Part shown: positions 37,716 to 55,835 of the stretch, piece after piece | Layout of the letters: every line of letters starts with the position of its first letter | Numbering within the stretch: the stretch's first letter is position 1 | Source: Coriobacteriales bacterium | Lineage (GTDB): Bacteria; Actinomycetota; Coriobacteriia; Coriobacteriales; UBA8131 | Assembly: GCA_031282405.1 (NCBI GenBank) | Contig: JAITDU010000048.1 | Location: forward strand, 62,001-126,000 | Length of the DNA stretch: 64,000 nt | Direction: 5' to 3' | Position numbers and translations under genes: made by a program | The notes under the pieces: model-generated | What the model was told of the DNA's origin: nothing | Database searches by the model: none | Seen by the model: only the letters and a program-made list of their open reading frames with translations

Positions 37716-40700
37716 CTAAAGCCGGCTGCGCCTTCTTCTCACCATAAAGATAGTCGCGGCGGCACCAAGGAGTCCCAGCGCCACAAGTACGATCAGGACT
37801 ATCAAAAGAGGGGTAGTCACACCAACGCTGCTGGCGGTTTCTGCACGGGTCGTATCGGCACCTCCAGTAGTGGTAGCATCCATGAATTTATCTGCGTCCT
37901 GGCCCAAAGCGGCCACCTCCGCGTCGAGCGCATCATCATCGAGTAGCTCGGATTCGACAACAGGAGTGTCGAGTGCGTCGGGGGCAGCAGGAGCGGGGCG
38001 CGTAATCGTAAAGGTAGTACTGCCTGTGCCGCTACCATAGTTATCATCAAAACGCAGGTGTAAGGTATGCGCTCCGTCGTCAAGCGTATCGACAAACTCC
38101 GAAGTCAGCGTCACAATAGCGCTGCCCGCAGTGAGCGTACCGGCAAAAACACCGCCCGCCCAAAGCTCATAGCTCGTATCCGACACCTTGACCTGGCGCA
38201 ACTGAACACCGTTAAACAGTACTGCGCTGACGCTGCCAAAATGACCCTTAAAGCGCACGGTCACACCTACGCCGCTATCCGTTATGCCCTCAAGGGCCGA
38301 GTGCTCAATTACCTGGTGGTCGTGGACCAGAACAGAAAGAGCGGCTTCAAAGGCAGCCGTTAGGCTCTCTACAGCGCCTTGGCTCAGGCTCGGGCCATTT
38401 AGGGCCACCTGAGTATCAAACAGGAGTTGATCCAGGGCCGCAAGCGTGTCCTCCGCGTAGTTCTCTCGATAGATACCGAGCACGGCAGTGCGGGCCTGGG
38501 TTATATCCTGGATAAGCTGCGTCCGGATCGTCTCGGAAGGCAGCACCGTTACCGGCACCAAAAAGCGCAGGGGTGTGTAATTGGTCGCATAAGGAGCCTG
38601 GGGAGAAAACACCGCCGTAGCATAATACACACCATCATCTTTGGCGTAGTAGCTTGTGCCAAGAGCATCCTGGCTGGTTTCATAGCCGGGAGCGCCCGGT
38701 ATGAGAGCAGCGTTATCCCACGTAAGTGCACCGGAAATATCCGCATCGTCGGCAACACCCGCAAATAGGTAGCCGAGTCCGTCCAATCCAGAACCGGCAG
38801 CGCTCAAAGCATCGCCAAAGGCAAGGGCGGGAGAGGCACCCGCGTGAGCCACCGTCAGCGCGGCAGGAGTGATGGCCGCTGTCGTATCTGCCGGTTGGGC
38901 GGCCAACTCGTAGTTGTGAGCCCGAGCGCCCATCAGGGCAAAATCAGAGAAGCTCACCGGCACCGCAGAATCGACATCGGCAGAGGCAAAAGTCGCTTGG
39001 GCATGGGAGGTGTCGAGAGAAACGTAGCTCGCGTCTGCTGGAAGTACCTCGTCAAAAACAGCGCTGTCTGCTCCGACAATAGTGGCTCCAAGCGTTTTAT
39101 CGTAGCTCTTATCAGCCGCGCTCACACCGCTTGCAATGACAGGACGCGGTGTTATGCTCCCCGTAACAGTGGGGAGCACAAAGGTATAACTTGAGAACTT
39201 GGGGCTGGAGGCAAGCAGGGCAAAGCCCGTGAGGGTTACCGGCTTGTCTTGCTCCGCGTCAGGGCTTGCAAAAGCGGCGGTGCCCACGGTTAAGACAATC
39301 GCGCCTGATGAGACATCGGCGGCTATCGTTGCCTGAGCAGCTTCTTGGGCCAGGGGAGAGAGCGCGCTTGGCCCCAAACCCTGCTCAAGAGGCTGCATCG
39401 TATCTGCGTCTACTGTCTGAAGCGTCGGTGTGCCCGTCAGAGGCGCAACAAGTGTTCCGTCGTAGACGCGGTCGAAGGAGCCCAAATTGGCAAGGGTAAC
39501 CGCGCGGGGCGCGATGTTCAGCACAACCGAGGCTACGGGGGATTCTCCGTAGTTGGTATCGGCCAGACGCTTGACATAAATTGTTGCGGAACCTGCCGCT
39601 TTGATTAAGACACGGCCGCTGTTCGCGACTTCGGCAACGGATGCGTCTGAACTCCACCACTGCAAAACGCCTGTTCCAGCGGCACCTTGCGCCGTAAGTT
39701 CCAGGGGCAAGTCGCCGTAGGTAGCCGCAATCGGGCTATCCGTGCCGCCCACTTCAGCGTTATCATAAGAGATGGTCGGCGCTGTGGTCGAGGGCGCTTT
39801 GCTCACGGTATAGTTGACGGTTACGCCGTTTTGAGAGGCCGCGAGATATTCGCTGCCCGCATAGCTGGCAGAAAGGTTATGGTTGCCTGCCGCAAGCGTG
39901 ATGGTGGCAGATGCCCGAGCGGCGCCTTCCACTACAGTTACGTCCTCACTGGCAATCAGCACCTTGGGGGTGGCGGAATCACCGTCGGGATCGTCGTAGA
40001 AGTTTACTATAGCGCCCGTTCCTGTGGCTGCGACTGCGCCTGACTGGCCACCGCTAACAGTCGCGGTAAGGGTCACGTTGTCTGTGCCATAGGCCGGCGG
40101 GCTATCGGGAGAAACCGCAAGGCTCAGCGTTGATGCAGCCTTTGTGACCGTAAGCACAATCGTGGTGGTGGCCGGCTCTTCGCTTGTGGGAAGAGACGTG
40201 TTGTAAGCCACACCCCGCGGGTAGTAGGAAACTTTAAAGCTATGGCTGCTGCCGGCGCTCAAGCTGTTCAGGTAGGTCGCCGTAAACGCGATGCCGTCTG
40301 ACGTGAGCGTGTAGTCGTTGCTGGCACCCAAAGTAAGTATAGCGGGCACACTGCCTGACTTTTCTACCGAGGCAACCGTGTTGGCGCTGCTCGCAAGCCC
40401 CAGGCCGACCGAAACGCCTACTGGAGAAGTCTTGGTATAGGAGGCCGATTCTGTAACGGGGCCGTCTGAGTAAATGACGATACCGGCTGAGTTGGCCACA
40501 CGCACATTGCCGGCATTATCGGTAACGCGGGCATAGACGATATATTTACCCGGGGTAGTGAGCGTAAGACTTGCACTGCCGGAAGAAACCGTTGTCCAGT
40601 TTGCGGAGGTATCTGCGATGGCAGCGTCTTCGTTTGCAAAGGCCGCCACGCCTGAGGAAAAGTCGTGTAACAAGTACTCAACTTTTGCAACACCGGAGTG

Positions 40701-43700
40701 CGCATCGGTGTCTGTGATGACAACGGGCGCGCCAGGACTTGCCTTGTAGAAATGAGAGAAGCCGCTGGGCACCGAGAAGTCCAGGCGAGAGATGCCACGC
40801 ACGCTCACTTGTGCGGTGGGTGCCGTTTTGTCAAGCCCGATAGTGGCGCTCTTGACCTCCTCGATATTATCGGCTGCGTCGACCGACCAGTAATGTATCG
40901 TGTGCGTGCCTTCGGCCAGCGGGCTGTTTTCTGCATCAAACAAGGCGCTAAGCACGAATGGTCCCGAGTAGGCCTTCTCTGCGCCTCCATCTACGGTGTA
41001 GCAGGTGGCGACAACCGTGCCCAGCCCACCGGTGGCGGTTACATCGGCATCCGTGGCCGTGAGCGTAACCTTGCCATCTGCGGCAAGCCAGCCGCTCTCA
41101 GGCGTAATGGCTGTCACCGGCGCCACGCCATCGGTGTAGTTAGGTCTAAACACCAGAGGTGTGGCGGAGGTGCTGCCCACGCCGGGGGTGTCCGCCGCTT
41201 CAAGAGCTTCAGCCGTCGGCATCGTGATAACCGCTGTGCTGGTGGTGGGGATAGCGTCCACCGAGGCACCGGCGATCTGCGTCCAGGACTCAAACTTGTA
41301 GCCCTCATTTGGCGTACCCGCCACAAGCGTGACCTGCCGTTCTGCCGCGTAGGCACCGGCTGTCACAGCGGTGTTTTGAGGAATACCATTGGCAGAATGT
41401 ACCTTTGTACCTGTGCCACCCGTGCCGTCAGTAACCTCAAGCGGATAGGTTTTGGTAATGCCCTTAACTTCAAGGCTGCCCTGAGCTATGCTCATACCCG
41501 CGGCATCATTGTCAAAGATAATATGTATAGTATGCGTACCGTTTTCTGTCATCCAGCCGCTGAGTAGACGCAAGGCGAGTTGGTTGGTAAAGTCATCTTT
41601 GTGCACGTGGTCAAATATGTAGGTGCCCGCTCCGCCATCTACGAACTCGTAGTTTGTGCCTACGTCAATGATCTTGCCGTCAAAGTAAACCGTAGCGTTG
41701 GAAGCGTTGTTGTAATCATCACTAAACTCCTTGCTCAGCCTGAATTCTTTGACTGGTGCGCTATAGGCCCCTCCGGCATCTTCTGGATTCAGTATCTGAA
41801 GCGCGGTGTCTTTATCAGTGGGGAAGTTGTTGCCCGAGGTGCCTAAGAAATAGTCCACCAAAGCGATAGCCTTGTCTGTCTTGGTTATTTTGCTTCCCTC
41901 CAACTTAGAGGGCAGAACGCCAAAGCCGGGGATGGACACGCGCACAGAGTAGGAGCCTTGCGCGACACCCGAATCGATCTCAAAGAGTACGCGGTAGGTA
42001 TAGCCCTCGTCTGCGTCCACTTTAACAACACCGTTTATTGTAAGAGCAAGGGCAGGATCGACAACGGGGTTACCCGCTTCGTCCACTTGTTCTATCTTAA
42101 CTTCACCTGCACCGACGCGATTTAGATACCCCATACCATCAGGGTCACTTGTGCCGTACCACACCAATGCATCAGGGCTTATCGGGGATTTTTCGTGATC
42201 GAGCGTAAACTGCAATACGCCGGAAGAGTAACCTTCAATGACAGGGACAATATGGGCTTCTTGAATCGCTCGGGGGATGGTGACTGTTGGGTAGTCATGC
42301 AGGCGCGTATCTTCTGAGTCTGTAGGTGCTGGTGGACGGACATTGCCGTCATGGAGCGTTGATGCTTGAACGGCGTAGGCAGAGATGTTGGTTATACCTG
42401 CCCAGACCTCAATATCGTCTCCGGTCTTATAGATGGCCTCGGCAAGTTCTTGCGAAGTGGTCCCAGAAATACCCTTGGGCACAACGGGGATAGTGTAAGT
42501 TTTGAGATTGTCAGAGACAGTGATGTTATTTACCCCTGTGCGCACGGCAGCACCCGCTACGCGCAAATCTCCTTGCCCCAGCTGGGTGGGATAGGCGAAT
42601 GTGACCTCGACTTCATTGGTAAGTCCGGTTGTAGTATCGATATGAGCCTCAACCGACTCGAACTCGACTTTGGGATGTACCGTAAACCAAACGTCTTGCG
42701 TAGCGGTATCTGCGTTATCATCGTTGTCCTCATACGTTATCGTTATTTGAGCATGGTAGGTATGAGAAGAAACCGTTTTGGTGCTGCTGTCAAAGGTGGC
42801 CTCCAGCTCATCTCCTGGTTGGATATACCACTCGGTTGAATTATTTTCATGTGAGATAACAAAGGCATCGCCACCCTCTCCTATGTTACTTGCGAAGGTA
42901 ACGCCTGTTATCGTAAAGGCGGGATTGAGTTTTACGAGCTGCGGGCTGGTATCTGAGCCATCACCTAAGCCAGCAGACAAAAGCTCGTAACCTTCAAGCT
43001 GGGCATTAAAGCGTACCTCGTCAAAGGCATGTACGGTAGCGGTAACAAAGTCAGAGGCAAAAGAGCTGGCTGTAGCCTGGATACGAATGCGATAGCGGCC
43101 ACCATCCAAGTCACTGATGCCTGCTGCAGCGTCAAATACTATCCAGGCACTTTCAACACCAGTAGAAGATACCGAACAATACTCATAAGTCTTAGAGACA
43201 TCCGGATCAGTGATGCTGATAGTGCCTTTGTCATTGGCAGCTGCAGGCGAGGTAACACTTACCTGCGGGGTACCAGGGCGCTCAGGCACATAGATGTAGT
43301 AGATCTCTGAGTCTACGTACGCTTCGGCGGCGGCGGCCATGCGCTGCACGCCTAACCAATAACCAAAGGTGCTAAAGGGGATATGGTTGTAGTAGCCTGT
43401 AAAATCACCCGTAGCGTCAGTAAGTGTGGCAGCCGAGACAGCACTGCCAAACGTGCCGCCTTCGCCATGTTGGAAGCGATAGGTCTCCCCTGCCACCAGA
43501 TCGACTATATGTGCATTGGCAAAGTCTATGGCTGCTTCAGCGGGAGTAGCTTTAGGTACCGGCTTATAGACAACTACGCCATCAACCTTAGAGTCTTCGT
43601 TTGTAACAATGTAGATGTGCCCATCTGCTGCCGTCCAGGTGCCGCCTGTCATGGTCACGGTGGCTGCTTCGTTGTTGGCGATTACTTTTATGGGAACAAG

Positions 43701-46700
43701 CCAAACTCTGCCGTCATGGTCACCTGCAATGGAGGTAGCACCGTTCTTTCCTGCCGCACCGCTCACACTCACGCCGGTACCGGCAAATTCGACAAAGCCG
43801 GCCACAGGCTTATCAAAGGTAATGAGGATGCCACTTGAGGCTACCTTGCCGTTGGTGCCGCCTACCTGCTCGGCGGTAAAGGACACTTCAAGCGGTGTTA
43901 TAACCGCGGTGGCTACGTAGGCAGCTTTGTTCCCGGCGGCGTCTACTACCACGACGTTAAACCAGTAGGGGGTGTCGGCGGTAAGGCCGGTAACTGCGTA
44001 GGTCAGCGTGTCTACGCCTGTTTCTTCTTCAACGCCGTCGCCATCTTGGTTCAGCGGTGTAAGCGTACCAGCTTCGATGCCATCCAATGTGGCGATAGTA
44101 TTGCTTATACCTTGTGCCTGGTAGATGTAGTAGGTAAGTTCACTGTCTTGTGGGAAAGCATCAGTGGCCTTTGTCCAGGTAAGGGTAACGCCTGTCTCGC
44201 TTACATCAGAACTCGTGATAAGGCCTTGTGCTCCCGCAACAGGTGGAGTGGTTTCTGCCTGAATGGTCAGGGCGACCGTAATCGCGGCGGAGTCGGCGTA
44301 GTCCTCGTCGCCTGCGCGATACACGCTTATCTCAGTTGCGGCATCTGCTGCGCCGTCGCCCGTAAAGGTGACAGTGCCGGTGGCGTTGGTAATGCCGCCA
44401 CCACTGGTAGAGCCTGCGACCGTAGCAACATCCTCGTCGCTACTCTCCCACACAAAGCCACCCGTACCCTCACCACCCGAGGCGGTGAGCGTATAGTCGC
44501 CCGCCTCGCGCGCCAGCGAAACCGCACCGGCCACAAGCCCCGCGCCAGAAACGCTCGGCGCTGCCTGTGGGGCCTTGCTCACCACAACCGTAAAGGTCGT
44601 GGTAGCGGGAGCTTCGTTCGTGTCGGTTTCGGCCACGCCCCGGTTATCCGGCTTGTAGCTTTCCCCCAGCGGGTTGTAGCTCACGGTAAAGGTATGGGTA
44701 CCCGCCTTAAGCCCCGTCAGGTAGCTGCCTTTAAGCACAAGGGCATTGCCGGAGATGGAGTAGTCCGTATCCAGCGCAAAGCTGGTTGCAGCGTTGTCGC
44801 GCCCCGCGCCCTGAGCGCTGCCGCTCGCAGAGGTGTTAACAAGCGGACTGTCGTCGCCTGGAGCCACATAGCTCGTGCGCTCAAGCCCGGCGATCGTGTT
44901 GCCCTGCAGCGTCACATAGATGTTTTGATCCACGCTGGTAAAGCGCGTGATGTTCACACTTTGCGTGTCCGGCACGCTGTCGGTGTAGATGACGACGCCG
45001 TCTTTATAGGTGGTGAAGTTGCCCGCCTTATCTACCACCTTCACATACAGCGCGAACTTCGCGTTGGGCGCGGCGCTCAGCGAGGAGCCGTAGGTCTGCC
45101 ACACCCCCTCCAGAGCTGATGCGCTCAGCTCTGCGCTGGGGTTGTAGTCACGATAATACGAGACCGTCTCCACATCTGAGCCACCCGTATCAGTAGATGC
45201 TATGGTAATAGTAGTAGTGTCTTTGAAGAACAGGCCAAAGGTGATGGAATTCAGGAACTCCCGGAAACCATCGCTGCCGTATTGCACCGTCGCCGTGGGA
45301 GCCGCGCGGTCGATCCCAAAGGTCAGGGTCTTTTGCTGGGATATCTCATAGCGCGCAATGGCACCCTGTCCACTACCTACCGCATCGCCCACACGCCGCA
45401 CAAAGAAGCTCACCGTGCCGTCTGTCACAGCACTGGAAGCCACAACGACAGGTTCGGTAGTCCACGGGCCCGCAGCGCTCGCGCTTGCATCCATGCTCAA
45501 AGCATAGCCCGAAACTGCCGTAATAACAAAGTCGTCCTTTGTCCAGCCCGCGTTGAGCGGTGTGGAGGTAAAGTGCACGCCTTCCTGCGGCTCAAAGCCG
45601 GCGGTAATCGAAGCGGCATTCGTAATGGACATAGCCGGCTGCATGAGCGTATAGTTGGCCGCCGCGCTGCCGCTGAGCGAGAAGTCGCCCGTACACTCCA
45701 CGGTCTTACCCGTAGCTATGGACGCATCTGCAAAGGCGTAGCTAACGCCCGAGGTAACCAGGCTCACGTTGTCGCCGGCAACAGCACCGCTGAGCACAGG
45801 CGCGCCCGTAACCGCAACGCTTGTGAGCCCGTCAAAGTGCTTGCTCGCAAAGAACAGGCCGCTCATATCAACACTTACCAGCCGCGCAGAGACGAGGATA
45901 TCCACGCCCACGTGTAAGACAGGTACGTTGTTGTCCATATCGGAGGGGGTAAAGGTCGCCAGATGGGTCTGGGTGCCCACGGTACCCACGCGCGTCAGGG
46001 CCGGGCTTGCGGCCTCCCAACTCCAGGTGCCGGGGACATTATTGGTGCCGCCGGAGCTCAAAAAGCCCGCCAGGCTCACACCAGAAAGCATAGTACCGTA
46101 AGGTGCCGTAAGCCCTGATGGAGCCGAAACATCGGGCGCGTTTTTCGCGATGGTCAAGACGAATTCCGCAGAGTCAGAGCCCGCCAGCCAGTCGCTATCA
46201 CTCGCGCGTTGTGCCACGATGATAACCTGTCCGGCACCGTAAACGGTCACGGTGCCGTCGGCAGCAACCGTAGCAACGCTGTCTTTGCCAGCGGTGCGCC
46301 TGAAGCTTATCGCACCGGTACCCTCGCCGCCTGTGGCCTGCAGGGTAAAGGTGTACGGGCCGGCTTTAACGGCCTTTTGCCCGGGATCGGTGATAACAAC
46401 CGCCGAGGTCTGCGCGCGCTTTACCACGCTAACGGTGGCGACGGCGGAGCGCTTCTGGGCAGTCTTCTCGCCATTTACGGATGTGTTCGTATTGGTAACC
46501 ACGCAGTAGTAATACGTCGTTGCCACCGCGTTGCGCTCGGGCGTATAGCTCGCATCGGTCGCACCAACTATCGCCTGGCCGCCCGTGCCGTCAGGCGCGG
46601 TGGCCGTATACCACTGATAAGAAAGCGCGCCGCCACTGGCCGCGTCGGGGGCCTGGGCGCTTACGGATAAGCTGAGCTCGTGAGCCGGGTCGGCAGCTGC

Positions 46701-49700
46701 CGTATAGACCTCGCCCCCCTGCGGCTGTACGCCGATGAGGGGTGTGGCAGCGTGGGTGGTGGGAGCGATGACGACCGTAAGCGTAGCGCTCAGACCGCCG
46801 GCGTAACTGTGATAGCCAGGGGTATCTCCCAGGGTCGCAACGAACGTATAGCTGCCCGCCACCTCAGTGTCATAGGCACCCTGTAGTGTCCAGGCGCTCA
46901 CGGGGTAGGCGACGGTGCCGTTTGTGCAGGTGGCCGTAACAGTGGGATGGAGCGCCAGCAACGTGGCGGCCACGTTCTCCGCCTCAAAGCCCGAGGTCAC
47001 GTATCCCACGTTGCCGCCGGGTACTTCAAAGGGTAGAAAACCCGTTACCGCGTTGGGGCTCACGGCAAAGCTTACATCGACGGAGGCTGCGATGCCGTTT
47101 TGCCCACTGACCACAACCGTGGCGGTATAGCTGCCCGGCACAAGCCCCGCCTTGGGGCGCACACTAAAGGGAGTGGCGCTTTCGTTTTGCGCGACAATGG
47201 TGGGGATAGTCGCCGTTGCGCCGGCAACACCGGCGGCCACGAGTTCAAAGGCCGAGGGATCCGAGCCGCCCAGTACCACGTTCATTTCTGCGGTAGGCTT
47301 ACGTCCGATATTGGTGATGGTGATGTCGTGGGCCGCAACGACTTGCGCGCCGTTCGCGCTTAAGCCCACCGCATAGCCGTACTGCGCCTCGGCAAAGGTA
47401 AGCGTGCCCTGCGCATCCAACAAGATTCCGTAGGGTAGTTCGTTGACGATGACGGTGAGCGTGGGAGCAAGGCTTGAGGTATGCGTCAGGTTTGAGCCGA
47501 AGGAGCTCAGATCAAGCGTGGCTGCAAAGGTATAGCTGCCCTCGGTATCTGGATTAAAGAGCGCGCCGGTATTCGTCCACGCGCTAATAGGCACTTCTAT
47601 CACAGCGCCACTGTCAAGGTTCGCGCTCACGGTTTTCACGCCCGTAAAAGTGTTCTCTGGGGCATCTGGCGCGGTACCATTTAATAATATATTAGCAATT
47701 TCGTCTACCGTATCGCGATCCACTCCCAGTTCGTGCGCCTTACCCGCAATCCACGAGTCCAAGGCAGAGAAGCCCGTGATGGTAGCCGCGCTCACGGTAA
47801 AGGACAACAGATAGCTTGCCAAGAAGGGCTGCGTGTGCCCGCCCTGGCCGCTTTGCGTGCCCGATACGGTAAGGGTTGCCGTGTACGTTCCGGCAGCAAG
47901 CCCCGCGTTGGGACTCACGATAATATCGGACGTACTGGCCTGGGGAGCGAGGCTTGCCAGGTGCAGCTGCGAGACGCTGAACGCGCCGGGGTTATCACCC
48001 GAAAGCGCCACCGAAAGCGCCCCCGTAGGTTGATTGCCGGTGTTCGCTACCGTAAGCGCGTGAGAAGGAGCGGCAGCATAGCCCCACGTGCGCCCAGCAA
48101 AGCTGTAGGTGGCATCCTGGGCGGTATCCAGCGAGATGCCCCAGGTTGGCTCTGTGCTGCCGGTCGCGATTGTCAGCGGCTGGGCAAAGCTCGCAAAGTT
48201 GCCTTGCTCGCCGGTAGTGGCCTTGTAGCGCAGACGGTAGTTGGAACCCGGAGCGAGGTTATAAAGCCGGTGCGCGGCTGCGTCAAAGTTCGCGAGCGCG
48301 GCGATATCGGAGACCCATGTCAAACCACCGTTATTGGAATACTCCATGCTCTCGGCCCACACGCCCTCGATGCTGCCATCGGCAAAGCCGATAAAACTCT
48401 CGGCATACGCGGTGGCGGCTGGTGCGACAGGCCGCGTCTTTATCACCAGGTTTGCCGCATCAGAAGAAAGCAGCGTGTTCGTATTGGACTTGATGAGAGA
48501 AAGCGGCGCGGTTGCACCGGTGCCCCGCCCAAACCAGGAACTGTCGATGCTGATAGTACCCTGGCTGGTTGTGCGTTGGGCAATGCCGTCTACGAGGTAA
48601 TCGACGGAGCCCACGAGCCCGGTTATCTGCTCGTGAGCGTAGTCTATCTGCGGCACAGGCTTTTTCTCGGTAACCGTCACCTGCACGGTGGCCGTCGCGG
48701 TGTGCGTAATTCCCTTGCCCTCGGGGTGGTAGGTAACAGAAAGTGTAGCGGTATGCACGCCAATCGCGAGGTTGTCCTTGGGGCGTATGCTAATGCCCAT
48801 GTTTTGCTCGCCGGCCTCAAGCGTCGTGGTGCCGGCCGGCGCAACGAGTTCAAAGTCGGTCGTGTTATCGAGCGTAACTTCTGCGGCGGCAAACGAGGCG
48901 GAGATATTGCCCGTGGCCGTAAGCGTTGCGGCGCGGGCAGCAACGGACGCGCCCTGTTCGATACGCCCCGAGCCGTCTGCGCCAAAGACCGGCGCGGTGA
49001 GGTTCAGGCTGACCGCCCTGTCATCAACAATGACCGTAGCGGGCGTGCTGGCAAAAGCCTCGGAGCCGGACGTTGTTACGGCCTTATAGCGCACGTAATA
49101 CGTCCCCGCTGAGACGGACAGGTAGGTGTCGCTGCCCTCAATCGTAACCGCGGTGACCGCAGTAAACGGCCCTGTGGCCGAGGTCGCGTATTCCATCTCT
49201 GTGGTAACACCATATATCTTGTTTGCGTAGCCGGACAGGCCCTGCGGCGCGGCTGGGCGGGCCGGGATAACGACATCGGCCGGTGCGCTGTCGGCCGTTG
49301 TGGCGTTGCCGGCGGTAACGACACGTACCGTCTGTCCGTGCCAGTCATAGGCATCACTGCCCGTGGCTGCAAGCGCTATCTGGCTGTTGGCGTTGGAGGT
49401 GCGCGAGGTCCCGTTGACAAGATAGGCGGTGTTCGCGGCCGGCAGCACGAGCGCATCTGCCGCGTAGTTGATGCTTACCTGCGGTGTGGCGGCGCGCGCG
49501 ATGGTAGAAAACGTGAACGTCTGAGCGCTGGCCTGCGCCAAGTTCTCCGTATTCGTAAAGTCGCTGACCTCTACCTGATAGGAAGCCCCGTACTCAATGC
49601 CGGAAAGGGGCAGGTTCAGTATGTTATGTCCGGCGTTCCAACGCGTGTCGTTCGCAGTGATGGCGCCACCGCTGAGTGCGGGTGCGTCACTGCCGCCGGT

Positions 49701-51174
49701 GGAGGTCTTGGTAATGGTAACGTTGCCGGGATCTGAGATGTCAATTTCTTGTGAGAAGGACAGCGAAAGCGAGCGGGTAGACGCCGGAGGAAGGTTGGTA
49801 GCTCCATCACTCGGAGCGGTGAGCGCAGCGACGGGGCGGGGTTGATCGGCCCAGGTATAGGCGCTGAGGGCCGAGATGTTGCCCGAGATATCGACGGAGC
49901 GCGCCTGGACGACGGTGTGGATATCGGGGTTATCGATAAAAGGCGTACGCGCCGTGGCTGTAAGGTCGAGCTGTCCTGCGCCATCTCCGTCCAAAACCAC
50001 GTAGTCTTTCCAGCCGTCGTTAGTTGACGCATCTATCCAGTTTGCGCCGCTGTTGCTTGAGATGCGGTACTGGTATTTAGCCACACTCTTGTCGCCGTCG
50101 TCGGTAGAATAGCCCACCGTAAAGGTGTTGCCCACCTGCGTGATGACGGGAGCTGAGGGGGCGGTGAAGTCCTCGATGATGGGAATCGAGGGATCGATAC
50201 CTGTACCGTCTGCGCTGAATGCGAGTCCCGTAGGCACATAGTTGTTCAGGACGTAGAACTGACGCAGATCGTATTCCTGCGCAACCGCCCCAGACGCGGC
50301 AGTGAATCCGATGTAGTACTCATTCCCAATGATGGATTCGATGTCTGCGGCGACGGCCAAAGTAGCCGTCGAGGGCTTGGTCGGCTTGGAGCTGACAAAA
50401 AACTTCAGGGAATTGCTCTTCGATTCATAATCCACCCAGGAATAGCAGTGGATGTCCGTTACATATTGCGTAAAAGCGCTGTCGACATATGAGAGCGCAC
50501 GCGTAGTCACTCCATCACCATCGGAATTTCCAGCGATTTCAGAAAAAAGATTTCCCTGCTGGGCGTAACCCGCGAAGGGAACTTTCTGATTCGAAGTATT
50601 GTTGTAAGTATCAACCTTGAAGGCGACGGATCTGCCGAAGGGGCCGCTCGGGCCGCCCTCATAGCCGAGCGAACCGCTTCCTTTTGTGACGCCGTTCGTG
50701 TCCGCCGCGATGATAAAGGACCAACCGTCGGCGAGACTCGCCAAATTCGCCGATTTCGCTCCCATGTACATATCAAACATAGCAGAGAAACCCGTTTCGG
50801 AGTAAATTCTACGAGAAAGGAACGCGGAACCGTACTTCCATGTCGGATTAGTTCCGAGAGCATTGGAGATGAGTCTGATGTAGCCGGGAGTATCGCCGCT
50901 CGCCGCGATGACGGCGGAATCGTTGCCCGTCAGCTTCATGGTCTTATCGCCGAGCGTCGAGGCGTTAGAGGACGAGAACGACGGTGCGATAAAGTAGGCG
51001 CCCACGGTGCTGGCGGGCTGCTCCTGCGCTGCGGGCGGCGCTTCTTCAGCTTGGGCTAAAGGTAGGCTGGTGAGCCCCCCCCCCCGGCACCAATGCCAAG
51101 GCGAGCAACAGGGCCATACCGGCCCTCCCCGCCCGCGCCAAAACAGAGCCGTTTTGCTTGTTATATTGCTTCAT
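37716..51174 (-). CDS. Giant (~4,485 aa if frame restored) lectin/Ig-like surface protein; frameshifted at a poly-G tract
   Basis: RBS GGAGG + ATG (51172-51174) + signal peptide MKQYNKQNGSVLARAGRAGMALLLALALVPGGG in one frame. The rest (LTSLPLAQAEEAPPAAQEQ..., L-type-lectin-like N-domain, MBG/YDG-, Ig-, FIVAR-like repeats, C-terminal TM + RRRRSRL) is in another frame, offset by the G11 tract at 51075-51085. Confidence 0.85.
51075..51085 (-). repeat. Poly-G (11 G on minus strand) homopolymer within the signal-peptide region
   Basis: Plus strand tgag-ccccccccccc-ggcacc, 11 C counted at 51075-51085. Confidence 0.95.
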
Positions 51175-51308
51175 GCTAATCCTCCACCCAATAATCAAAT
51201 CTAAACTATGCGCCACCCCATAAAACATACGCCCGGAGAAGCGCCCGAGTATCCCTTCCGTGCGGCCTTCTTTCCGCAATCTTTAGAATACCTCAGTACA
51301 CAACAGAG

Positions 51309-51376
51309 CCTATACTATCACAGATTTCCAAAAGTCAAGCCCCACACTCGCACTTTTTAACCAATTGTAACCAATT
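51309..51376 (-). promoter_or_regulatory. Candidate promoter and upstream direct repeats of the giant gene
   Basis: Minus strand TTGACT (51333-51338) and TATAGG/GTATAG (about 51309-51315). taaccaatt direct repeats at 51358-51366 and 51368-51376 (10-bp period). Confidence 0.45.
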
Positions 51377-51447
51377 TTTGCTGATTTTCACAAAATCTTT
51401 ACAACTCAGAGGCGCTGTATGCAGATTTTGTGTGGTTTACGCACGCC

Positions 51448-53441: not shown

Positions 53442-54677
53442 TTAACACAGCGAAGCTGCAATGCGGTCGAGAATTATCCGAGCCAGACGATTTTTTGTGA
53501 CAACGGCGGTTTCCTCCACGTAATCGGGGCCGACGAGCCAGACCTGGTTATGGTCGCTGGCAAAGCCCCGCGCAGGGTCGGAGACATCATTGGCCACTAT
53601 CAGATCGGCTCCCTTGGCCATAAGCTTGGCGCGGGCATGGGCCACAACATCGCTGGTCTCGGCCGCAAAGCCCACAATAAACTGCCGGCTTCGTCGCGCC
53701 GCCAGTTCGGCCAGAATGTCCGGGGTAGCCACCAGGCGCAGGTCATAGCCGTTCGTATCCAGATCGCTGCCCTTTTTGAGCTTGTGATCTGCGGTTTCCT
53801 GCAAAGAAAAATCGGCCACAGCCGCCGAGAACACGACAATATCGCAGTCATCAAAATGATCGCCGGCAGCCTCAAACATCTGACGCGCCGTTTGCACCGC
53901 TACCAGCGTAACGCCTTGGGGGGCGGGTATGGCGACCGGACCAGAGACCAAGGTGACCTCGGCACCACGCCGAGCGGCTTCACGCGCAAGGGCAAAACCG
54001 GTCTTACCACTGGCCGGAGAAGAGATAAAGCGTACCGGATCGATATACTCGCGCGTAGGGCCGGCGGTTATCAGCACGCGCTTGCCCGCCAACTGTTGGC
54101 TGTGACCCACCTCATCGAGGACCGCGTTACAGATGTCCTTTGTTTGAGCCAGCCTGCCGGCGCCCTCGCTGCCACAGGCCAAGTGCCCATAACCGGGGCT
54201 GACAAACGTAACGCCTTGTGCCAGCAGCTTTTGAATAGAGCCTTGGGTAATCGGGTTGTCGAGCATGTCCTGGTTCATGGCGGGAGCAACGATGAGCGGC
54301 GTTGTCAGGGCCAAAGCGACCGTCGTGAGCAGATCGTCGGCGACACCATTTGCTATTTTATTAAGCACATTTGCGGTACAGGGCGCAATCACCATTACGT
54401 CGGCCTCCTGGGCGAGTGAGACATGATGGACAGGCGCACCCGGCTCATCAAACAGGTCGACAGCAACCGGCTCTCCGCTCAATGCCTTGAACGTGGCCGC
54501 ACCCACAAAAGACTGAGCATGCTCGGTCATGACGACTTTGACACGCAGTCCGGCATCTTGCAAGAGCCTGAGCAACTCGCAGGACTTATAGGCGGCGATC
54601 GAACCTGTCACACCAAGCAGCACCGTTAAAGCGCGCGAAGACGCGGCCTGTTCGTTGGGTTGATGAGGCACGTTCAC
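53442..54677 (-). CDS. coaBC: Bifunctional phosphopantothenoylcysteine decarboxylase / phosphopantothenate-cysteine ligase
   Basis: LLGVTGSIAAYKSCELLR...APAMNQDMLDNPITQ...ITAGPTREYIDPVRFISSPASGKTGFALAREAARRGAEVTLVSGP. Confidence 0.95.
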   Translation of the reverse strand: MNVPHQPNEQAASSRALTVLLGVTGSIAAYKSCELLRLLQDAGLRVKVVMTEHAQSFVGAATFKALSGEPVAVDLFDEPGAPVHHVSLAQEADVMVIAPCTANVLNKIANGVADDLLTTVALALTTPLIVAPAMNQDMLDNPITQGSIQKLLAQGVTFVSPGYGHLACGSEGAGRLAQTKDICNAVLDEVGHSQQLAGKRVLITAGPTREYIDPVRFISSPASGKTGFALAREAARRGAEVTLVSGPVAIPAPQGVTLVAVQTARQMFEAAGDHFDDCDIVVFSAAVADFSLQETADHKLKKGSDLDTNGYDLRLVATPDILAELAARRSRQFIVGFAAETSDVVAHARAKLMAKGADLIVANDVSDPARGFASDHNQVWLVGPDYVEETAVVTKNRLARIILDRIAASLC

Positions 54678-55699
54678 GGTGCCTCCCGGTAGCTTATCTT
54701 AGCTATGGGGGACTCCCAGACAGCAACCTCAACCAGGTCGATGCCCTTTGGCAGCGCTGGTTTGAGTCGATGGTAGATAACCCTGGCCAGGTTCTCGGCC
54801 GTGGCGTTGATGCGATCGAAGGGTTCTCGGTCATTGAGGTAGGTATGATCGTAATCGTCAAGGATGGCCGCCAGATCGGCTTTCAGTGTCTTAAAATCAT
54901 AGACTATGCCCACCTCGTCCAATTCGCGGCCACAGACGCTGACTTCAACATCCCAGGTATGGCCATGGAGGCGCTGACACTCACCCGGATAGCCAACAAG
55001 AGCATGGGCGGCATCGAAGTGGTCGCGCACCGACAGCGTATAGCGGCTGCCCGGATACTCAGAAGCAACCGGAAAGCCGTGGTTTTCCGACCCAGCGTGA
55101 GCCTCAGGTCCACCCAACACCGGGCGGCTCGCAGGTTTGCTTGGCTCGACTTGTACCGCAGGCTCATCCGGTTCAATCTGGATTACAGGCTCACCCTGCC
55201 CGATGTGGGCTATAGGTTTGCTTGTTCCAGCATCGAGCGCAGGCTCACCCGTATAGTCGTAATCCATGCGATAGGTACCCACACTACCCGCATAGTCCAT
55301 GGCCTGATTGGCCAGGGCATCGGCACGGGAATTATCTGCGCGTCGCACATGCTCGATCTGCCAGCGCTCAAAGCCGGTCAATAGACCTCTGGCCTGTTCG
55401 TAAAGAGGTTTGATACCGGCATTTCTCACCTTATATACGCCACTGAGCTGCTTGACCATAAGCTCACTGTCAGCATGAATATCAAGAGAGCGAATACCCA
55501 ACGCCGCGGCGTTGCGCAAACCCCAAAGCAGGGCATGGTACTCGGCCTGGTTATTTGTGGCCTGACCGATAAAAGCACCGCCGTCAGCAAGAACCTCCAA
55601 GCCCGCGCCCGTGTCAATCTCGATGACAAAACCGATGCCGCTGGGCCCGGGATTGCCCCGAGAGCCACCGTCACAATGCATCAATGCCGTTCTACTCAT
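54674..55699 (-). CDS. Fusion of RNase HI and QueD/PTPS-like 6-carboxytetrahydropterin synthase
   Basis: N-terminus ALMHCDGGSRGNPGPSGIGF...NNQAEYHALLWGL...ADSELMVKQLSG...VRRADNSRADALAN. C-terminus RDHFDAAHALVGYPGECQRLHGHTWDVEVSV...GIVYDFKTLK...ATAENLA...VAVWESP. Confidence 0.92.
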   Translation of the reverse strand: MSRTALMHCDGGSRGNPGPSGIGFVIEIDTGAGLEVLADGGAFIGQATNNQAEYHALLWGLRNAAALGIRSLDIHADSELMVKQLSGVYKVRNAGIKPLYEQARGLLTGFERWQIEHVRRADNSRADALANQAMDYAGSVGTYRMDYDYTGEPALDAGTSKPIAHIGQGEPVIQIEPDEPAVQVEPSKPASRPVLGGPEAHAGSENHGFPVASEYPGSRYTLSVRDHFDAAHALVGYPGECQRLHGHTWDVEVSVCGRELDEVGIVYDFKTLKADLAAILDDYDHTYLNDREPFDRINATAENLARVIYHRLKPALPKGIDLVEVAVWESPIAKISYREAP

Positions 55700-55835
55700 C
55701 TCGCGCTCACCTTCTCCCCCACATGCTATGCTCATTCCGCGTTTACCTTCTTATCTTAGTTTCGATCAGTCCACAACCTCCGTATGGAGGGCGGCAGCCA
55801 GGCAATCGCCTCGGCGCGCCGAACTGATACCTATG

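Follow-up and report, generated by a model that had tools for sequence, protein, structure and literature searches.

We propose that a 13-kb gene on the minus strand of the 64-kb window (the whole stretch of DNA analysed here) encodes a stochastically switched, membrane-anchored giant L-type lectin adhesin on an Ig-like stalk, with a run of 11 guanines (G11) inside the signal peptide serving as its ON/OFF switch. We assign this reading a probability of about 0.74. The assembled sequence is out of frame and therefore represents an 'OFF' allele: the leader and the body are out of register because the tract is 11 guanines long. The original prediction, of a lectin-capped giant adhesin, missed this frame break, on which production and secretion of the protein depend and which is the more important feature of the locus.

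Frame geometry at the start of the giant gene

An unbroken frame of 4,429 codons spans positions 37716-51005 (minus strand; open reading frames of the window), which corresponds to a protein of ~4,400 residues. The original prediction described this single uninterrupted frame accurately but left the strand unstated, and its implied start at GTG 51005 is wrong. This GTG is the sole start-like codon in the giant frame before the lectin domain; it falls inside the mature protein, 169 nt into the true gene, with neither a signal peptide nor a good Shine–Dalgarno sequence before it. Initiation there would drop the signal peptide, and we rule it out. Upstream of the GTG the giant frame stays open to about 51170 and contains no ATG, GTG or TTG. 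The initiation codon is instead ATG 51174, which lies in a different frame from the giant open reading frame. The features of this region are as follows (all on the minus strand).

51181..51185 (-), Shine–Dalgarno-like GGAGG, read directly, 6 nt 5' of the ATG
51046..51174 (-), leader open reading frame beginning MKQYNKQNGSVLARAGRAGMALLLALALVPGGG..., start of a Sec-type signal peptide; 42 codons plus stop in the leader frame
51075..51085 (-), poly-G tract (G11) inside the signal peptide, across which the leader and giant frames are out of register
51051..51074 (-), continuation of the signal peptide in the giant frame, LTSLPLAQ, from sequence
37716..51074 (-), giant adhesin frame 3' of the tract, from the open reading frame and sequence; stop codon at 37716-37718

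The G11 tract lies where the leader frame and the giant frame overlap, and only around it do the Shine–Dalgarno sequence, the ATG and the hydrophobic leader (core Kyte–Doolittle hydropathy of about 2.7) meet the giant frame. Past the tract, the giant frame reads LTSLPLAQA-EEAPPAAQ, resembling the end of a signal peptide with its cleavage site, and the leader and body thus fit each other. The predicted cleavage site is of the Ala-x-Ala type (LAQA^EEA) and would fall just 3' of LTSLPLAQ. The locus therefore has a homopolymer in the 5' coding region, between leader and body, that sets the reading frame. Further upstream, only weak consensus matches to a sigma-70 promoter were found near 51364-51393, and a local promoter of this type was set aside.

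The tract exceeds what is expected by chance for a window of 64 kb. Runs of G or C number 223 at length 4, 50 at length 5 and 8 at length 6; there are none at lengths 7–10 and a single run at length 11. Dinucleotide shuffles of the window reached the observed G9 count in 5 of 100 cases, a figure that applies to a run anywhere in the window, before the run is required to fall within the 129-nt leader.

The genes that flank the giant (FtsZ, an ABC transporter and its binding protein, IF3 and CoaBC-type genes) look like housekeeping genes, and we ruled out a functional operon with these neighbours. The window also contains, at 54677-55735 (minus strand), a single open reading frame in which an RNase H-like domain is fused to a 6-pyruvoyl tetrahydropterin synthase domain.

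Lectin tip, stalk and anchor

The protein encoded 3' of the tract consists of a predicted lectin domain, a long series of beta-sandwich modules and a C-terminal membrane anchor (all on the minus strand).

50238..50999 (-), predicted L-type (legume-type) lectin domain with the ADG Asp and the DxYxN calcium/sugar motif (Pfam, PDB profile, Foldseek, alignments)
49491..50180 (-), two Ig/FnIII-like modules 3' of the lectin (AF2 pLDDT 61.6, Foldseek, Pfam; Big_5 weak)
47082..47324 (-), CARDB-like beta-sandwich module (Pfam, 29.8 > 22.7)
45639..45848 (-), YDG module (Pfam)
44673..44789 (-), X2 (CBM_X2) Ig-like module (Pfam, 32.5 > 28.9)
43926..44216 (-), fibronectin type III (fn3) module (Pfam, 28.5 > 25)
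41208..41441 (-), InlB B-repeat-like module (Flg_new_2; Pfam, 26.9 > 23.6)
38904..39152 (-), second YDG module (Pfam, 52.2 > 25)
37740..37811 (-), single C-terminal transmembrane helix (hydropathy)
37719..37739 (-), cytoplasmic basic tail RRRRSRL, with no sortase motif (sequence, hydropathy)

The motifs quoted in support of a lectin-like N-domain are present, and the domain matches Pfam Lectin_legB (PF00139) above the gathering score (35.0 versus 26.3 bits). Lectin_L-type_dom (PF18483) was matched with an E value of 9.7e-12, yet its 45.6 bits fall below its own cut-off of 78.3. The whole protein matched nothing in the PDB by phmmer; in a PDB search with a profile built from three homologues, all 25 of 25 matches were legume or L-type lectins. 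The AF2 model of the domain, built from three sequences, is poor (pLDDT 41.8) and we therefore used only its fold-level match: the listed top 50 PDB matches found by Foldseek are all L-type lectins, including SraP, YwfG and SasG (E values of 3e-8 to 6e-7 and TM scores of 0.3–0.4 with this low-confidence model). On these profile and model comparisons, we identify the N-domain as a predicted L-type (legume-type) lectin.

The alignments also show the calcium/sugar core of such lectins. The Asp in ADG, the D-x-Y/F-x-N motif and the Gly-Ala loop (GFTA) do not vary among three homologues and are mostly retained in two distant relatives, with the second motif in the form D-T-(Y/F)-x-N when these are added. 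In YwfG of Lactococcus lactis, D117, D152, Y154 and N156 bind calcium and mannose (PMC9815576; PDB 7yl4/7yl6), and these residues and their loop match the ADG Asp, DxYxN and GFTA loop of the giant. YwfG is likewise a surface protein with an N-terminal L-type lectin on a modular stalk; however, it is far shorter and has mucin-binding-type repeats, whereas the stalk of the giant is of Ig, FnIII, YDG and X2 modules, its transmembrane anchor is free of LPXTG and a poly-G tract interrupts its signal peptide. SraP of Staphylococcus aureus, which also has an L-type lectin tip, uses a single calcium site (D365, Y367, N369 and D382) for adhesion (PMC4047093; PDB 4m01), with D365, Y367 and N369 in the same role as the calcium/mannose residues of YwfG (PMC4047093). 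Unlike the giant, which has no Ser-rich region, SraP is a serine-rich-repeat glycoprotein. No clear counterpart of the fourth calcium ligand (Asp166 in YwfG, Asp382 in SraP) was found in the alignment: loop 7-8 has no Asp at the published spacing, and an invariant DGDG follows further on. The Glu of the classical Mn site is replaced by Lys. The conserved core suggests that the domain binds sugar; its target may be the host, a flagellate or a neighbouring cell, in line with the glycan binding on host or neighbouring cells that was originally envisaged.

The CARDB, CBM_X2, fn3 and InlB-type modules and both YDG modules exceed their Pfam cut-offs. The repeat arrays had been described as Ig-like, YDG and MBG modules, of which the Ig-like beta-sandwich and YDG assignments held; the giant gave no match to the Pfam MBG model and none to the FIVAR profile at E ≤ 0.1, and we dropped both the MBG label and that of a FIVAR-like segment. 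SiiE, a giant adhesin, is a type I-secreted protein; the giant described here shares with SiiE and Bap a very long Ig-like stalk, but differs from them in its Sec leader, C-terminal transmembrane anchor and lectin tip. Foldseek matches of the two post-lectin modules included FnIII domains and the giant adhesins SiiE (2yn3) and Bap (7dm0), again with a low-confidence model. The C terminus is as first described, a single hydrophobic helix with RRRRSRL after it. The last 200 residues contain no LPXTG-like motif, which argues against LPXTG anchoring, although the host genome encodes sortases. Structure matches to L-type lectins for the N-domain and Ig-fold predictions for the repeats support a predicted lectin-capped giant surface adhesin that lacks LPXTG.

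Poly-G tracts elsewhere in the genome and in relatives

The same tract placement is found in other surface genes. The genome contains 62 G-runs of 9 or more, and these are enriched in surface genes, both pilins and adhesins. Overlapping matches to a G 9-mer number 165 genome-wide compared with about 16 expected, a roughly tenfold excess (expectation scaled from the window shuffles, 0.52 per 64 kb). Contig C45 of the same genome, G000, encodes a second giant, 4,673 aa long (L091:488-14506, minus strand), which has a G10 tract near its start and reads in frame; its stalk and C terminus are homologous to those of the lectin giant (31–37% identity), and it has no lectin match in Pfam. A 652-aa Flg_new-repeat protein with an LPXTG-type sorting signal, MPATG (L092:228-2183, plus strand), has its G10 directly after the signal peptide and reads in frame. 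In a surface protein of 1,136 aa (L090:11146-14553, minus strand), G10 occupies the same position and the gene is out of frame as assembled. A further G10 lies near the start of a 797-codon frame (L037, around 2476, minus strand), the N terminus of which resembles molybdopterin oxidoreductase; this could be a switched enzyme. Poly-G tracts also occur within 250 nt of the ends of contigs C1, C5, C9, C31, C32, C43 and C57 of G000, which suggests that assembly is interrupted either by the tracts or by the recurrence of the pilin leaders.

At least 24 type IV prepilin-like genes (for example, L032, L047, L049, L060, L071 and L076) carry G9–G12 tracts that lead into a GFTLVELIVV motif. Using the nearest ATG to call frames, 4 of the 24 are in frame as assembled and 20 are out of frame. 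The tract lies about 20 nt after the ATG, and the leader is unusually long, with 39–142 aa from the tract to GFTLVELIVV. The genome encodes a prepilin peptidase and 41 N-methylation motifs; the sister species G008 has 56 such motifs and the same pilin leader design (L118-L121), with tracts of G11–G14. Among the 33 family genomes, this exact leader context is confined to these 2. In the open-access literature, we found no earlier example of poly-G switching in Coriobacteria, nor of type IV pilins switched in this way.

The lectin giant itself is present in only 2 of the 33 family genomes and is absent from G008. In the Coriobacteriales metagenome-assembled genome (MAG) Gx485_bin20, which is probably from a termite gut bacterium because the sample code Gx485 denotes a Glyptotermes termite (PMC11707648), the lectin domain is 59–64% identical and the homologue has an open frame that aligns with 4,054 residues of the giant at 45% identity. 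A second lectin homologue, 59% identical (L082), occurs in MAG Im510_bin135 (G417), which is labelled Clostridiales Family XIII, and there a G9 tract and frame break precede the signal peptide. That MAG also contains numerous tracts (L106-L116) that are all exactly G9 and share a conserved context, several of them 80–110 codons upstream of GFTLVEVIVVLVILAILAAIAIPALT. The relative G020 has a further giant, of 4,508 codons, with G13 at its N terminus; the G020 homologue of the lectin giant is neutral with regard to the tract because the contig stops inside the leader. The 189 tracts of the relative G004 were treated as likely sequencing clutter, being mostly at contig ends among those listed.

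Switching mechanism, alternatives and meaning

In the mechanism that we favour, translation would begin at ATG 51174 and, with G11 in the signal peptide, the ribosome would continue in the wrong frame and make no more than a 42-residue peptide. Through slipped-strand mispairing, the tract would gain or lose single bases, and lengths in one of the three classes modulo 3 would fuse the signal peptide to the adhesin, displaying the outermost calcium-type L-type lectin on its stalk of Ig-like modules. Given such slippage and a single in-frame class, expression of the surface protein would switch randomly between ON and OFF in single cells. Tract lengths would accordingly vary within the population, and the fused product would be exported and mediate adhesion. 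A precedent is provided by the sortase-dependent pili of Bifidobacterium breve UCC2003, a gut symbiont likewise from the Actinomycetota, in which the Sec signal and the body occupy two open reading frames separated by a G-tract and joined by slippage, the tract length deciding the fusion (PMC9187656). In B. breve, however, such tracts belong to pilus operons that number one or two per genome and encode LPXTG pilins, whereas here they are found in the giant lectin adhesin, in the second giant and across a large family of prepilins.

Slippage could instead act at the level of RNA, with RNA polymerase or the ribosome slipping at G11 to give a fixed in-frame fraction, and thus a low, constant level of protein from a single genotype. 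G-runs of this length can be slippery for polymerases, and the position of the tract suits RNA as well as DNA slippage, but tract lengths differ among the pilin paralogues (G9–G12) and between sister species (G11–G14 in G008), as DNA slippage predicts, and the B. breve parallel was demonstrated at the DNA level (PMC9187656); we consider this explanation unlikely. It is also quite improbable that the break arose from an error of assembly or sequencing in a gene that is always in frame. Homopolymer length can be wrong in a draft MAG: G-runs are error-prone, such an error occurred even in a finished genome (PMC9187656), and poly-G clutter is seen at the contig ends of some relatives (G004). Nevertheless, a G-run of about this length would be real regardless and only one in three length classes is in frame; dozens of genes, and a second species as well, show this design with its context precisely preserved, and several G10 genes of the same assembly read in frame.

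That the gene is a decaying pseudogene, its start lost by a frameshift, would account for the out-of-frame allele and is very improbable indeed. Decay is unlikely because the 4,429-codon frame is free of stops; moreover, 45% identity to an open-frame homologue is maintained over 4,054 residues and the Shine–Dalgarno sequence, ATG and signal peptide are intact. A different doubt concerns function, as a switched surface protein might retain a lectin fold that no longer binds sugar and act as a structural or biofilm stalk. The lack of conservation of the fourth calcium ligand and the Mn-site residue in the alignment (PMC9815576) points in this direction, whereas the invariance of the ADG Asp, DxYxN and GFTA loop in three homologues, and their broad retention in the two distant ones, argues against it; we think it improbable that sugar binding has been lost.

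Neisseria and Campylobacter are well-known examples of random switching by poly-G tracts. Here, in an uncultured member of the Coriobacteriales, such switching seems to govern a 13-kb lectin adhesin together with a large set of prepilins, and gene callers will mis-start or drop genes of this kind. We see about even odds that this genus of Coriobacteriales gut symbionts keeps a large poly-G 'phasome' of giant lectin-type adhesins and dozens of type IV prepilin genes, every one with a separate G-tract in its leader and most of them OFF. If so, each cell would show a random small subset of pili and adhesins, and the leader, poly-G and pilin design, together with the 59%-identical lectin giant in the Clostridiales Family XIII MAG, would point to sharing of the system across phyla.
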